From: Planctomycetota bacterium | GTDB taxonomy: Bacteria > Planctomycetota > Phycisphaerae > Phycisphaerales > SM1A02 | Direction: 5' to 3' | Assembly: GCA_021414025.1 (NCBI GenBank) | Contig: JAIOPG010000008.1 | Coordinates: forward strand, 248,001-312,000 | Length of the DNA: 64,000 bases | Part shown: piece after piece, positions 20,163 through 25,693 of the stretch | Layout: each line of letters opens with the position of its first letter | Position numbering within the stretch: the stretch's first letter is position 1 | Position numbers and translations under genes: made by a program | The notes under the pieces: model-generated | What the model saw: the letters and a program-made list of their open reading frames with translations, nothing else | Told to the model about the DNA's origin: nothing | The model's database searches: none

Positions 20163-21008
20163 CTAGACCGGCGGCTTTGGATGGCGGCGAACTTCGCGCG
20201 CCTGCTTGCGCAACGCCACGTCGTAGAGGCCGGGGAAGGCATTGATGACGCCTGAGGCCAGGCGCACTGCGAGGCTGGTCCAGACCTCGCTCCGCGGGCG
20301 GCGCAGGCAGCGCACCACCGCGTCGGCGACCTGCTGCGGAGTCTGCACGAACATCTTCGGCGCATGATCAGGCACGGTCTTGCCCTGTGGATCGATGCCG
20401 GCGCGCAGAACGGACTGCTCGAAGAATTCCGTGGCCGTCGCCACCGGATGCACGCTCGAGACTTCGATGCCGTGGGGCTCCAATTCAAAGCGCATGGCGC
20501 GGGTCATCATGGCTTGCGCGGACTTGGTGGCCGCGTAGGCTCCGAAATAGGGAATGGTGAACTTGGCCAGGCAGCTCGAGCACATCAGCAGGTGGCCGCG
20601 CCGCTTCTGGCGAATCATCTGCTGTGCCGCCAGCGAGAGCAGCTCGGTGGCCGCGAAGAAATTCAACTCGAACATGGCGCGGATCTCCGCCATGGACATC
20701 TCATGGACCGCTTTTTCCATGCCGTACCCGGCGTTGGCGAAGACCACGTCGACACCGCCGAAGATCCGCTCTCCTTCTTGCAGCATGCGTTGTGCCGCGC
20801 CGGGCACGGCCGCGTCCAGCTGCAGCGCCACGGCCTCGCCGCCGCGGTCACGGATCCGCGCCACCACCCCTTCGAGCCGATCCGCGCGCCGAGCCACCAG
20901 CAGCACGCGCATGCCGGCGCGGGCCATGGCCTCCGCGGTCGCGGCGCCAATGCCGGAGCTGGCGCCGGTCACGATCGCCGCTCGATTTTGAAGGGATCCA
21001 ATCGCCAT
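20163..21008 (-). CDS. Short-chain dehydrogenase/reductase (SDR)
   Basis: 281 residues, classical SDR. Cofactor loop 'VTGASSGIG' (13-21) with 'VARRADRLEG' (basic residues suggest NADP), 'FANAGYG' in place of NNAG, catalytic Ser in 'LLMCSSCLAKF' and 'YAATKSAQ' (Tyr-x3-Lys). The C-terminal segment with Pro/Arg-rich end resembles membrane-associated SDRs acting on lipids. The substrate is unknown. TACGCT, on the minus strand 12 bases before the ATG, shares its TA with the -10 of the divergent channel gene. Confidence 0.85.
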   Translation of the reverse strand: MAIGSLQNRAAIVTGASSGIGAATAEAMARAGMRVLLVARRADRLEGVVARIRDRGGEAVALQLDAAVPGAAQRMLQEGERIFGGVDVVFANAGYGMEKAVHEMSMAEIRAMFELNFFAATELLSLAAQQMIRQKRRGHLLMCSSCLAKFTIPYFGAYAATKSAQAMMTRAMRFELEPHGIEVSSVHPVATATEFFEQSVLRAGIDPQGKTVPDHAPKMFVQTPQQVADAVVRCLRRPRSEVWTSLAVRLASGVINAFPGLYDVALRKQAREVRRHPKPPV

Positions 21009-21020
21009 AATGGAGGGCGC

Positions 21021-21030
21021 AGCGTATCCT
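21021..21030. promoter_or_regulatory. Symmetric -10 element shared by the SDR and channel genes
   Basis: AGCGTATCCT holds TATCCT on the plus strand (8 bases before the channel ATG) and TACGCT on the minus strand (12 bases before the SDR ATG), with one common TA. Confidence 0.4.
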
Positions 21031-21038
21031 GCTCGCCG

Positions 21039-22187
21039 ATGCGAGGAATCCGACTCTTTTCCGTGGCCGCCGGCGCCGCACTGTTGATCGCGGCCGCGCT
21101 CGCGACCGGCTGCGCCAGCGCCGGCAAGACACCGGATTCCAAGCACCAGCGCGGCATCGAAAGCCTGGACAATCGCGAGCCGCTGAAAGTCGGCGTGATC
21201 GACCTTCCCCCCTACGCGTTCCGATCGGGCGGCGGGCATTGGTCGGGCCTGGCGGTCACGCTCTTCCATCAGATCGCCAAGTCCTCCAGCCTGAAATACT
21301 CCTTCGTGGAATTCAAGGACATGCCGGAGCTGGTGCGGGCCATCGAATCGAATTCCATCGACCTGGCCGCGATCGCGGTGGATCCCACCCCCGAATATGA
21401 ATTGATCATGAATTTCTCGAACTCGTTCGACGAGAGCGGCACCAGCATCGTCATCCGCAAGCAGAAGTCGCTTCCGTTCCTGGAGATGATCGAGCAAATC
21501 TGGCAATCCAACATTCCCGCCTTCACCGGCATCGTGCTGCTGGTGCTCTGCGTGGTCGGCATCCTGGTGGGCTTCGCCGAGCGGAAGAAGAACCCGTCGC
21601 ATTTCGGTGGAAGCTTCCTGGGCACCATCGGCGAGGGGTTGTGGTGGAGCTCCTCCACCATGAGCACGGTGGGCTACGGCGACCGCGTGCCGACCACCCG
21701 CAGGGGCCGCGCGCTGGGCGGGCTGTGGATGCTGATCTCCTTCGGGCTCATGACGGTCCTGGCGGGCATGTTCTCGAGTGTCCTCACCATGTCGCAGTTC
21801 AACTCGCTCATTCGCTCGGTCAACGACCTGGCGCAGACCCGGTGCGGCGCCGTGGAGAATTCCGCCGCGTACGACGACGGCAAGGACTTGAAGCTCGCCA
21901 TGAGCCCCTACTCGACGCAGGAAGATGCTCTGACCGCCCTGGCCAAGGGAGAGATCGGCGCCGTGCTGGGCGACACCGTGCAGATGCGGTGGATCCTGGA
22001 GCAGCCCGAATGGAAGGGTCTGGCCATGCTGCCCGCGCCGCTGGTCACCCTGTATGCCGCGTTTCCAATCTCCAACAGCGTGGATCAGCGCACCCTCGAC
22101 GTCATCAATTTCCACCTGCTCAAGATCACCGACTCACCGGAGTGGGAAAACATCCGCCACCTCTTTCTCGGAGCCCAGCATGAATGA
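21039..22187 (+). CDS. GluR0-like ligand-gated potassium channel (prokaryotic ionotropic glutamate receptor type)
   Basis: 382 residues in the order signal-S1-M1-P-M2-S2. Residues 1-25 form a signal, with a possible lipobox 'LATGC'. S1 (about 48-155) is a periplasmic solute-binding half domain ('PLKVGVIDLPPYAF'). M1 is about 159-181. The pore loop is 'SSSTMSTVGYGDRVPTT', with the K+ selectivity filter TVGYGD at 210-215. M2 is about 225-250 and S2 about 255-382. Synechocystis GluR0 has this plan and a similar size (about 397). The S1 arginine that grips the ligand alpha-carboxylate in glutamate receptors appears replaced: in 'DPTPEYELIMNFS' the aligned residue is Y120. The ligand is therefore probably not a standard amino acid. 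It overlaps btpA by 8 bases. Confidence 0.88.
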   Translation: MRGIRLFSVAAGAALLIAAALATGCASAGKTPDSKHQRGIESLDNREPLKVGVIDLPPYAFRSGGGHWSGLAVTLFHQIAKSSSLKYSFVEFKDMPELVRAIESNSIDLAAIAVDPTPEYELIMNFSNSFDESGTSIVIRKQKSLPFLEMIEQIWQSNIPAFTGIVLLVLCVVGILVGFAERKKNPSHFGGSFLGTIGEGLWWSSSTMSTVGYGDRVPTTRRGRALGGLWMLISFGLMTVLAGMFSSVLTMSQFNSLIRSVNDLAQTRCGAVENSAAYDDGKDLKLAMSPYSTQEDALTALAKGEIGAVLGDTVQMRWILEQPEWKGLAMLPAPLVTLYAAFPISNSVDQRTLDVINFHLLKITDSPEWENIRHLFLGAQHE

Positions 22188-22983
22188 CTCGTCCGCGTTT
22201 CTCGGCGTCCCCCGCTGCCTGATCGGCATGGTGCATCTGGCGGCGCTGCCGGGATCGCCCCGCTCGGAGCTGCGCGTCTCGGAGATCGCCCGCCAGGCGG
22301 TGATCGAAGCCAAATTGCTCGAGAAGGCCGGCTTCGACGCCATCCTGATCGAGAACATGAACGACCTGCCCTACCTGCGGCGGAATGTGGGCAGCGAGAT
22401 CACCGCGGCGATGACGGCCTGCGCCCTGTCCATCCGCGCGGCGGTCGAGGTGCCGATCGGGCTGCAGATCCTGGCCGGTGCGAATTGCGAGGCGATGAGC
22501 GCGGCCCACGCCTGCGGCGCCTCCTTCATCCGCGCCGAGGGCTTCGCGCTGGCCGCCATCGCCGACGAGGGGATCTTCGACCAGGCCGACGCGGGGCCGC
22601 TGCTGCGCCACCGCAAGATGCTGGGGGCCGAACGCGTGCTGATCGCGGCCGATGTCCTCAAGAAGCACTCGAGCCATGCCATCACGTCGGATCTCAGCGC
22701 CGCCGAGCAGACCCGCACCCTGATGTTCTGCGGCGCGGACGCGGTCATCGTGACCGGCAGCGCCACCGGGCAGCCCGTCAACTTCGAGCAGCTGGGCCTG
22801 GTGAAGGAGGTCTCGCGCGTGCCGGTGCTGGTGGGTTCGGGGGCGCGGGCCGACAACGTTTCCGAGCTGCTGGAGATCGCCGACGCCATCATCGTCGGCA
22901 GCGACCTGAAGCGCGGCGGTCGCTGGCAGAATCCGATCGACCCGGCGCGAGCCAAGGCTTTTGTGAAGGCGGCACGGCGATAG
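22180..22983 (+). CDS. BtpA/SgcQ-family TIM-barrel protein
   Basis: 267 residues. N-terminal 'CLIGMVHLAALPGSPRS', 'AKLLEKAGFDAILIENMNDLPY', and later 'ADAVIVTGSATGQPVN' and 'PVLVGSGARADNVSELLEIADAIIVGSDLK' are hallmarks of the BtpA family. In cyanobacteria BtpA is needed for stable photosystem I. Outside phototrophs the family (SgcQ and relatives) has no settled function, and its fold suggests a phosphosugar or nucleoside enzyme. It starts inside the end of the channel gene, so expression is coupled to it. Confidence 0.85.
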   Translation: MNDSSAFLGVPRCLIGMVHLAALPGSPRSELRVSEIARQAVIEAKLLEKAGFDAILIENMNDLPYLRRNVGSEITAAMTACALSIRAAVEVPIGLQILAGANCEAMSAAHACGASFIRAEGFALAAIADEGIFDQADAGPLLRHRKMLGAERVLIAADVLKKHSSHAITSDLSAAEQTRTLMFCGADAVIVTGSATGQPVNFEQLGLVKEVSRVPVLVGSGARADNVSELLEIADAIIVGSDLKRGGRWQNPIDPARAKAFVKAARR

Positions 22984-23054: not shown

Positions 23055-23915
23055 ATGCAGGTTTGGCTCAACGGCCGCATTCTTCCCCTTGAAAAGGCCA
23101 TGATCAGCCCGCTGGACCGCGGGTTTTTGTTTGGCGACGGCGTCTACGAAATGGTTCGCTTCTTCGATCGCGTCGGCATGGCCATGGCGGCGCACATCGA
23201 GCGCCTCGACCGCAGCCTGAGGCTTTCGCGCATCGAGGGATTCGACGCCTCCGGGCTGCCCGCGCTCTGCGAGAGCCTGCTCGATGCGGAGGATCTGCGC
23301 GACGCGAGCGTGTATCTGCAGATCACCCGCGGCGCGGCCGCCACGCGATCGCATCTGCCCCCCGCCGGCATCCAACCCACAGTCTTCGCCATGGCTTCAC
23401 CCTGCGGCGCATTGAGCACGCTCGAGGCCGCGGAGCCGATCGCGCTTTCCGTGCAACCCGATCAGCGCTGGCAGCGCTGCGAGATCAAGTCGATCAGCCT
23501 GATGGGCAGCATCCTGCCCATGCTTGAGGCGCGTGTGCACGGCGCGGAGGAGGCCATCCTGGTTCGCGACGGTCGGGTCAGCGAGGGATCGAGCTCGAAT
23601 GTCTTCGTGGTGCGCGGCCGCGAGGTCGCCACGCCGCCCATCGATAGCGACCCGGCGATTCTCCACGGCACCATGCGCACGCTGGCGATCGACGCGGCGC
23701 GGCAGATCGGCCTGAAGGTCGCCATCCGGCCGGTGATGGAAGCGGAGCTTGCGGCGGCGGACGAGATCTGGATCACCAGCAGCCGCCGCGTGCTGGCGGG
23801 ATGCGTCGCGCTCAACGGCGCGCCCTTTGGCGGCGGCCGTCCGGCGAAGCTGGGCGACGACGTCGTCCGCGCCATGCGCCGGGCGGTGGAAAATCTCCTG
23901 GTCAAGATTCCCTAG
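23055..23915 (+). CDS. Class IV (fold type IV) aminotransferase, D-amino-acid or branched-chain type
   Basis: 286 residues. 'PLDRGFLFGDGVYEMVRFF' near the N-terminus, the PLP lysine in 'QRCEIKSISLMGSILPML', and 'EAILVRDGRVSEGSSSNVFVV' are class IV motifs. 'DRGFLFGDGVYE' and the short length favour D-alanine transaminase or a 4-amino-4-deoxychorismate lyase-like enzyme over IlvE, but sequence alone does not settle this. The reaction moves an amino group between an amino acid and a 2-oxo acid with PLP. A 71-base gap from btpA holds its own -10, and coaX follows after 12 bases. Confidence 0.85.
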   Translation: MQVWLNGRILPLEKAMISPLDRGFLFGDGVYEMVRFFDRVGMAMAAHIERLDRSLRLSRIEGFDASGLPALCESLLDAEDLRDASVYLQITRGAAATRSHLPPAGIQPTVFAMASPCGALSTLEAAEPIALSVQPDQRWQRCEIKSISLMGSILPMLEARVHGAEEAILVRDGRVSEGSSSNVFVVRGREVATPPIDSDPAILHGTMRTLAIDAARQIGLKVAIRPVMEAELAAADEIWITSSRRVLAGCVALNGAPFGGGRPAKLGDDVVRAMRRAVENLLVKIP

Positions 23916-23927: not shown

Positions 23928-24734
23928 ATGTCCGCACTGCTCGCCATTTCCGTCGGCAACACCTGCACCTCCTTCGGCCGTTTCGTCGACCGCAAGCTGG
24001 TGGCGTCGGAGCGCGTCGAGAACGCGCAGGAGCAAGCCATCGTCGACGGCATCGCGACCGCATGGGGCGAGCTGGCCGACCCGGACGCGATCGTGGTGAT
24101 CGCCAGCGTGAATGACGCCTTCGCCGCGCCGCTCAAGAGCAAGATCGAGAAGCGCCTGAAGACCGAGGTGCTGCGCATCGGCAGCGACTTGCCCGTGCCC
24201 ATCGGCATCTGCCTGGACGCCGGCGCCACTCCCGGCCAGGACCGGTTGCTCGCCGCCGCCGCGGCCTACGACTCGCTCAAGCAGGCGGTCGTGGTGGTCG
24301 ATGCGGGCACCGCGATGACCGTTGACTTCGTCGATGGCGAGGGTGTCTTCCACGGCGGAGCCATCATTCCCGGCGCCGCGCTGCAGTTGAAGTCTCTTCA
24401 CGAGCACACGGCGGCGCTGCCCCGTGTGGCCTTCGCCCAGCCCGATCCCAAGGAGCCCTTCGGAAGAAACACCGCGGCGGCGATGCTGCTGGGTGTCTAC
24501 GAAGGAATGCGCGGCGCCATGCACCGGCTGGTGGAGCGCTACGCCGAGCACTACAAGGCCTTTCCCATGGTGGTGGTCACCGGCGGCGACGCCGACGTGC
24601 TCTTCACCGACGACGACCTGGTCGACCGCCACGTGCCCGACCTGGTGCTGATGGGCATCCGCGTGGCGGCGGAGAAATCCATCGAAGAGGACTCGTCCGA
24701 TCACGACGCCTCCGTCGACGCGCGGGAGGAATGA
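23928..24734 (+). CDS. coaX: Type III pantothenate kinase
   Basis: 268 residues. ASKHA-fold kinase motifs: 'LLAISVGNTCTSFGRF' (phosphate 1, Asp replaced by Val-Gly-Asn in the usual 'IDIGNT'), 'ATPGQDRLLAAAAAYDSL' (GxDR), 'VVVVDAGTAMTVDFVD' (phosphate 2) and 'GGAIIPGAALQLKSLHEHTAALP' (G-x-I-x-PG). It phosphorylates pantothenate, the first step of CoA synthesis. 'SVGNT' in place of 'DIGNT' is a departure at a position that normally helps bind metal/phosphate, which may affect activity. The stop overlaps the next gene by four bases (ATGA). Confidence 0.9.
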   Translation: MSALLAISVGNTCTSFGRFVDRKLVASERVENAQEQAIVDGIATAWGELADPDAIVVIASVNDAFAAPLKSKIEKRLKTEVLRIGSDLPVPIGICLDAGATPGQDRLLAAAAAYDSLKQAVVVVDAGTAMTVDFVDGEGVFHGGAIIPGAALQLKSLHEHTAALPRVAFAQPDPKEPFGRNTAAAMLLGVYEGMRGAMHRLVERYAEHYKAFPMVVVTGGDADVLFTDDDLVDRHVPDLVLMGIRVAAEKSIEEDSSDHDASVDAREE

Positions 24735-25693
24735 CCGTGGGCGGCGGCATGGCCAGCTGGCTCACCGCGGGAGGCGCCGGCGCGATCGCTGCCTTTCAAG
24801 TCGATGCGGAACCCCCGCTGCTTGCCGGCGCGCTGGGCATCGATCTGCCTGCCATCGGCGAAGCGGGCCTGCGCCGCATCTGTGATCTCGACGACGCAGT
24901 GGTCCTGCGCACGAGCGCGAGGACGCTTCTGGTCACGCCACACGGCGGCGCCCGGATTCGTCAGCGCCTGGTTCGGGCCCTGATGGACGCCGGCGTCGCG
25001 TTCGCATCGCCCGAACAACGGGCGCCTGAAGAGATTTATGTCGAGGCGGCCAACGAACTCGAGGCGCGCATGCTCCAGGCGGTTGCTCAGGCGGCAAGCG
25101 CCGACGCCATCCCCCTCCTGCTGGCCCAACCCGGGCGATGGAAATTATTCGGCGAGCCGACGTCGCAAGACCTGCCCCGCTCGCAACGGCTTCGATGCCT
25201 CATCCATCCTCCGACGGTGGTCCTTGCCGGCGCACCGAACGCGGGCAAGAGCACGCTGCTCAACGCACTGGTCGGCCGGACCGCCGCGGTTGCGTCGCCC
25301 GTCGCGGGCACGACGCGCGATTTCGTCTCCGCCAGGGTCCTGCTGGCTGGGCTTACTTGCCGCGTGGTCGACGCGCCGGGCTTTGCCACGTCGGATGACG
25401 CCATCGAGCAGGCGGCGATCGCCCGCGCTCGTCGCGAGCTCGCCGAAGCCGATCTCGTCATCGCGCTGGCCGCGCCGCACCAGGCCTGGCCTTCCTTCGA
25501 ACAAGATCGCGTGCTCCGCATCCGAACCATGTCCGATCTGCCCCGCTCCGCGCCTTCTATCGGTGACAATGGCAACGCACTTCGCGTCAGCGCGAAAACC
25601 GGCGAGGGTCTGATCGAATTTGCCCGGGCCATCCGCGAAATCCTCGTGCCCGCCGCCGATCTCGCCAGCAACCGACCCTGGCAATTCTGGTAG
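24731..25693 (+). CDS. Reduced MnmE-like GTPase (mini-TrmE paralogue)
   Basis: 320 residues against about 450 for MnmE. The N-terminal 110 residues retain a faint MnmE formyl-THF/dimer domain ('TPHGGARIRQRLVRALMDAGVAFASPE' matches the 'HGG...GARxAxPGEFT' block). The GTPase follows: G1 'GAPNAGKST' (167-175), K-loop 'GTTRD', G3 'DAPGF', G5 'SAKTGEG'. G4 is altered: 'TMSD' (266-269) where NKxD is expected, removing the lysine that stacks on guanine. The C-terminal helical domain with the catalytic 'C-[IV]-G-K' is absent, and the protein ends '...RPWQFW'. It is therefore unlikely to carry out the normal tRNA U34 modification. Function unknown. Confidence 0.75.
   Translation: MTVGGGMASWLTAGGAGAIAAFQVDAEPPLLAGALGIDLPAIGEAGLRRICDLDDAVVLRTSARTLLVTPHGGARIRQRLVRALMDAGVAFASPEQRAPEEIYVEAANELEARMLQAVAQAASADAIPLLLAQPGRWKLFGEPTSQDLPRSQRLRCLIHPPTVVLAGAPNAGKSTLLNALVGRTAAVASPVAGTTRDFVSARVLLAGLTCRVVDAPGFATSDDAIEQAAIARARRELAEADLVIALAAPHQAWPSFEQDRVLRIRTMSDLPRSAPSIGDNGNALRVSAKTGEGLIEFARAIREILVPAADLASNRPWQFW

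Follow-up and report, generated by a model that had tools for sequence, protein, structure and literature searches.

A GluR0-like predicted ligand-gated K+ channel with an altered ligand site in a freshwater planctomycete

Introduction

Prokaryotic glutamate receptors serve as models for the ancestral channel gated by amino acids, and an arginine in the first part of their ligand-binding domain (S1) is taken as their signature. In receptors of the GluR0 type, this arginine is described as holding the alpha-carboxylate of the ligand and an aspartate in the second part of the domain (S2) as holding its alpha-amine (Ger et al., 2010; PMC2950845). The same authors give both residues as totally conserved in the channels of their Groups 1 and 2, 12 with a K+ filter and 10 others (PMC2950845). 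GluR0 itself is reported to transport K+ in E. coli, to have an inverted topology and to play a part in cell volume when KCl is high (PMC13099474). In support of a modular view of such channels, an animal glutamate-binding domain has been described as able to gate a viral K+ pore (PMC6385376). Changes of the ligand contacts are described in insect ionotropic receptors (IRs), from which glutamate-contacting residues have been lost (PMC2924276), and in animal GluE2alpha, which lost the Arg equivalent to R485 (PMC12226733). We found no report of Arg-less prokaryotic channels of this kind in titles and abstracts of the openly licensed literature, nor any of such channels in Planctomycetota or Phycisphaerae in the openly licensed literature.

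Here we analyse a 64,000-nucleotide stretch (the window) of contig JAIOPG010000008.1 of a freshwater planctomycete (GCA_021414025.1), in which an original prediction made from the sequence had proposed a GluR0-like ligand-gated K+ channel with a changed ligand site.

Results and Discussion

Architecture and predicted fold of the channel

The channel gene encodes a protein with the plan of GluR0, in which a putative signal peptide is followed by S1, M1, a pore segment with the filter TVGYGD, M2 and S2 (Table 1). Pfam-A searches gave matches above the curated cut-offs to SBP_bac_3 (51.9 bits, stretch 49-374), Ion_trans_2 (43.5 bits, 181-250), Lig_chan (34.1 bits) and Ion_trans (27.9 bits). The SBP_bac_3 domain is split by the pore module, as in the channels that fuse this domain with a K+ pore, and the module has two membrane helices and a re-entrant loop carrying the filter. 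An AlphaFold2 model built with 55 relatives (mean pLDDT 91.2, pTM 0.78) contains the bilobed, split solute-binding domain on which the original prediction depended. Ranked by Foldseek alone, AMPA and kainate receptor chains came out on top, most of them including the pore. Running VIA-align 2 on the 1000 chains that Foldseek ranked highest gave as top match the GluR0 core with L-glutamate (1II5; Z 26.2, rmsd 2.6 over 218 residues), tied with glutamine-binding proteins (Z 26.1 and 26.0) and 2PYY (Z 25.6). The last of these, the ligand core of a Nostoc punctiforme GluR0 homologue, is also the PDB entry closest in sequence (E 3.9e-9 over S1). Thus, the domain plan and the K+ filter are established from the sequence and the bilobed GluR0-type fold from the model, which bears out the S1-M1-P-M2-S2 plan and the filter at residues 210-215 that had been proposed. 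By architecture, the channel belongs with the Group 1 prokaryotic receptors, whose filter, as described, it has and whose topology it would share (PMC2950845).

Table 1. Features of the channel gene and its conserved neighbours, with positions counted from the first nucleotide of the window; the limits of S1 and S2 are our own choice
Feature	Position	Strand	Remark
Short-chain dehydrogenase	20163..21011	-	Divergent neighbour conserved at the locus
Channel gene, 382 aa	21039..22187	+	Orthologues in 14/16 genus genomes, own included
Signal-peptide-like helix, residues 1-25	21039..21113	+	Helix 2-24 in model; lipobox-like A-T-G-C25
S1, residues 47-145	21177..21473	+	First part of ligand-binding domain
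R62	21222..21224	+	In F61-R62-S63
D115	21381..21383	+	Column mostly Thr in Arg-bearing relatives
Y120 (TAT)	21396..21398	+	Replaces the Arg that binds the carboxylate
M1, residues 159-181	21513..21581	+	Model helix
Pore helix, residues 193-208	21615..21662	+	Model helix
Selectivity filter TVGYGD, residues 210-215	21666..21683	+	Sequence
M2, residues 221-252	21699..21794	+	Model helix
S2, residues 259-382	21813..22184	+	Second part of ligand-binding domain
D312	21972..21974	+	Acid column holding the alpha-amine in GluR0; E in 7 F-type orthologues
BtpA/SgcQ family protein	22180..22983	+	ATG overlaps channel stop
Class IV aminotransferase	23055..23915	+	Best NCBIfam model D-amino-acid transaminase, below cut-off
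Type III pantothenate kinase (coaX)	23928..24734	+	
Short MnmE-like GTPase	24731..25693	+	

Arginines and lysines occur at 182-184, 216, 221, 222 and 224, on what should be the inner side of M1 and M2; with the signal-peptide-like helix, this placement is compatible with the inverted topology, of which it is no proof. The original prediction had also suggested that the N-terminus may be lipid-anchored. The channel does have the tetrapeptide A-T-G-C25, which we take to be lipobox-like from its pattern. Among the 8 orthologues with Tyr or Phe at the Arg column (below), whose F-type members begin with Met at the same aligned position (starts picked by eye), such a Cys occurs in the window's own protein alone; one protein of the Arg clade has V-M-S-C. 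The lipobox is not conserved among the orthologues, and we rejected a lipid anchor as a feature of the family.

An inherited locus with two ligand-site forms

Besides the 14 of 16 genomes with an orthologue, the genus includes one genome (73% complete) that gave none and one in which only the final 99 residues are present, at the end of a contig. The frame is fully open in 13 of the 14 orthologues, that of genome G009 being readable from residue 67 on, and TVGYGD is present in all 14. At the Arg column, the window's genome has Tyr, 7 genomes have Phe (hereafter F-type) and 6 have Arg. In a quick tree from an alignment stripped of columns 120 and 312, the Y/F branch had SH-aLRT support of 100, the Arg branch 96 and both together 100. 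The row of genes following the channel, BtpA, aminotransferase and coaX, had been noted in the original prediction and was confirmed by domain searches; it recurs in that order in all 13 other genomes with an orthologue. The dehydrogenase precedes the channel and the MnmE-like GTPase closes the row in 12 of 13 genomes each, the exceptions being the ends of one short contig. Outside the genus, one genome of the family shows this gene order minus BtpA, with Ser at the Arg column. The shared gene order and the joint clade point to a single inherited locus whose ligand site has changed. Identity to the seven F-type orthologues is 57-61% for the channel, 86-87% for BtpA and 85-88% for CoaX. The nearest named records among the best 80 of 481 relatives were L056, a Phycisphaerales metagenome assembly labelled Baikal-deep (Phe form, 59%), and L057, a Planctomycetota assembly labelled K_Offshore_40m (Arg form, 37%).

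We found nothing convincing about the ligand among the gene neighbours at the locus. The resemblance of the aminotransferase to D-amino-acid transaminases, below the cut-off, would if anything suggest a carboxylate ligand. The MnmE-like GTPase has 320 aa, and MnmE models matched it over the G domain only; elsewhere in the genome (C5:229868-231220), a near-full-length MnmE match reached 171 bits, under the 252.6-bit cut-off. If the dehydrogenase starts at the Met whose codon ends at 21011, 27 bases (21012-21038) separate the divergent dehydrogenase and channel starts, so that a promoter must extend into coding region.

The genome also encodes an iGluR-like paralogue (L002, G000:C2:264273-265343) that keeps the S1 Arg and in which MTGKTNYKG replaces the K+ filter. 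Paralogues of this type occur in 5 of the 16 genus genomes: 4 of the 8 with a Y/F channel, none of the 6 with an Arg channel (small numbers) and the one in which the K+-filter orthologue was not found.

The altered ligand site

The Arg of the 2PYY S1 aligns to Y120 with no gap up to the following FS, the stretch reading DPTPEYELIMNFS in the channel and SITAEREQNFDFS in 2PYY. Alignments with 2PYY, the orthologues and the wider relatives revealed no Arg at a shifted position, and the proposed replacement of the S1 Arg by Y120 stands at its own aligned position. In columns D115, Y120 and D312 we recognise what we take to be T480, R485 and E705 of GluA2; the placing of these residues and R62 relative to one another follows from the homologues and from the contacts presumed for them. 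The S2 acid for the alpha-amine is present as D312, and this acid and S275 are kept in 8/8 Y/F proteins. Of the 108 K+-filter proteins that bear the Arg, at least 61 have Thr at the D115 column. The motif F61-R62-S63 is fixed in 8/8 Y/F proteins, and none of the 5 Arg-clade proteins that can be read at this point has R62; this new positive charge might take over the role of the Arg or restore the charge.

Because the arginine that marks the GluR0 type by function is Tyr here and Phe in 7 orthologues, we do not file the channel as a glutamate or amino-acid receptor. With the residue that grips glutamate replaced, it probably senses something else, and a ligand new in kind is plausible from the sequence. 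Two acids (D115 and D312) and no Arg suggest a cation or an amine, and a cationic or amine ligand with no free carboxylate is our first guess, one more apt to be wrong than right. Acids in the pocket do not by themselves imply a cationic ligand, since D115 also stands next to the retained Arg in 4 of 6 Arg-clade sisters and is Asn in one Y/F protein.

Forty-eight positions, F61-R62-S63, A113 and N125 included, cleanly separate the Y/F and Arg clades; they are spread over the whole protein, and we do not claim that clade-specific changes cluster in the pocket. When the 7 F-type orthologues, a set without the window's own gene, were compared pairwise (21 pairs), dN/dS was 0.09-0.55 in S1, 0.07-0.76 in the pore part and 0.06-0.39 in S2, and thus below 1 in each pair and part. 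Ligand-lobe values like those of the pore indicate that the F-type lobes are kept under purifying selection and are not decaying, and we rejected a degenerating ligand domain for these orthologues. At pore identities of 30-39%, the ligand lobes were 22-24% identical in the window's family, with or without Arg, and 28% among Arg-bearing proteins outside it. Thus, the heads diverge faster in this family, and not only after loss of the Arg.

Arg-less channels in the wider family

Two sources supplied the relatives: named genomes (the best 80 of 481) and, starting from the window's genome, its own relatives, its family and its phylum. A single-sequence scan of the named genome contigs with the channel gave no relative; an alignment query found them. 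The collection came to 239 loci, with 20 neighbourhood loci (L032-L051) left out of the scan and a few listed matches, such as fragments and G382, omitted. The full-length filter passed 200 ORFs, from which 172 distinct proteins were aligned after removal of copies; the tree has 169 rows, as two proteins shared one name at each of three loci. As the set was gathered by likeness to the window's channel, its percentages should not be read as frequencies in the population.

A GYG or GFG filter was found in 149 of the 172 proteins. In this query-biased set, 41 of the 149 had no Arg, allowing for a few divergent rows, such as L118, in which the column is uncertain; the residues in its place were F (8), N (7), S (5), L (4), D, Q, H and T (3 each), A (2), and G, Y and E (1 each). 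The 23 proteins with another filter had Arg (22) or Lys (one). Arg-less K+-filter proteins made up 32 of 60 in the window's planctomycete family and 9 of 89 elsewhere, counts that carry the same query bias and, for the named part, cover the best 80 of 481; the 9 come from Bacteroidota, Myxococcota, Pseudomonadota, Thermodesulfobacteriota and Verrucomicrobiota. On the 169-row tree, whose deep branches have low support, the Arg state changes at least 12 times, counted without polarity and including one Arg/Lys change in a paralogue with no K+ filter. The family branch neighbouring the genus is Arg-less in 15 of 16 proteins, and the change within the genus is either a loss or an earlier loss followed by regain. 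Outside the Y/F clade, 22 of 33 Arg-less K+-filter proteins also miss the S2 acid. The raw counts associate the two losses (Fisher p 8e-11); a comparison of 8 independent pairs from the tree, which takes relatedness into account, had the acid differing in 0.6 pairs on average, which is not significant. We therefore do not claim a coupling.

Tandem iGluR-like pairs were observed in other planctomycetes (L184, L185 and L175, in genomes G317, G500 and G424): one protein has TVGYGD and its same-strand neighbour LLGHKG at the filter, and the two perhaps combine as subunits in one mixed channel. An iGluR-like protein with K+ filter and Arg (L111, 1829-2887) is encoded on a 3.2 kb contig that bears the label Methanophagales archaeon. 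The account of Ger et al. (2010; PMC2950845) places no such channels in archaea, and assembly contamination is possible for this contig.

Weighing the explanations

We consider it probable, by a modest preponderance, that the protein is one subunit of a tetrameric, K+-selective ligand-gated channel built like Synechocystis GluR0 (Slr1257; 1II5, 1IIT), with a changed ligand site. It shares with that receptor the S1-M1-P-M2-S2 order, the GYG filter, the bilobed SBP-3 core and the S2 acid, and differs from it by Tyr in place of the S1 Arg. The Nostoc punctiforme protein, of which the 2PYY entry contains the ligand core only, keeps the Arg, as do the Group 1 receptors as described (PMC2950845). 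The protein should assemble as a tetramer, open to K+ and still bind a ligand, and the ligand should not be held through a salt bridge between alpha-carboxylate and Arg. The family-3 solute-binding domain, interrupted by a K+ pore in inverted orientation, would hang outside the inner membrane, and its closure on a small ligand would pull the pore open. Opening may then shift the membrane potential or move K+ during osmotic change, as reported for GluR0. The original prediction stands in its plan, K+ filter, Arg-to-Tyr change and gene string, and finds no support for its lipid anchor. It did not extend to the absence of the Arg from a whole clade at this locus and from about half of the K+-filter proteins sampled in the family.

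An ordinary amino acid might still be bound, with R62 or backbone contacts replacing the Arg, in which case the protein would be functionally a GluR0-type, amino-acid-gated K+ channel. The fixation of R62 in the Y/F clade, and there only among the readable proteins of the genus, would fit this, as would the retained amine-binding acid and S275; animal GluE2alpha, although without R485, is described as a predicted glutamate binder (PMC12226733). Against it, the alignment has no Arg at the old place, and we hold this explanation to be rather unlikely. Less likely again is a ligand domain that is no sensor and serves a structural purpose, capping a K+ leak channel or a tension-gated one. The frequent absence of the S2 acid from Arg-less proteins outside the Y/F clade would suit such a cap, and membrane tension has been the subject of speculation for GluR0 (PMC13099474); however, the constraint on S1 and S2 in the F-type orthologues is close to that on the pore, and the acid and S275 persist in all the Y/F proteins. 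A decaying gene or an assembly error is very improbable. The low identity of the channel to its F-type orthologues beside that of BtpA and CoaX, and the incomplete frame of G009, could be read as decay; set against them are the full frames and filters of the orthologues, dN/dS values below 1 throughout and Phe in 7 assemblies. Moreover, Tyr or Phe in 8 of 14 orthologues, as one clade with the gene order of the Arg forms, argues that the change is no assembly error.

Implications for ligand sensing

For the probable K+ channel with a changed ligand site, the best reading is that it forms part of a family-level diversification of the ligand site resembling that of the insect IRs. The insect receptors are eukaryotic, have no K+ filter and carry one more membrane helix, and we see no sign of a common origin of the loss. 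The likeness is one of evolutionary pattern only, that of iGluR relatives described as having lost their glutamate contacts and diversified (PMC2924276). Likewise, GluE2alpha misses the same Arg and differs in being an animal protein and a predicted glutamate binder (PMC12226733). As a tentative proposal that we would put below an even chance, this family of aquatic planctomycetes may have evolved a repertoire of K+ channels in which the heads have ceased to recognise amino acids and have changed several times, with the Y/F clade converting a cationic, carboxylate-free solute into a K+ signal. Such a repertoire would include pockets with Y/F120 and an acid at 312, with N120 and Ser at 312, and with Q/A120 and Pro, and the K+ pore would have stayed while the head changed.

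If the site does change repeatedly, these channels would offer a natural series of how a ligand-gated channel gains a new ligand, with the Arg and Arg-less forms at one locus within one genus as part of that series. If true, direct chemical-to-electrical sensing in bacteria would be broader than amino acids, and the channels could provide parts for K+-based sensors.
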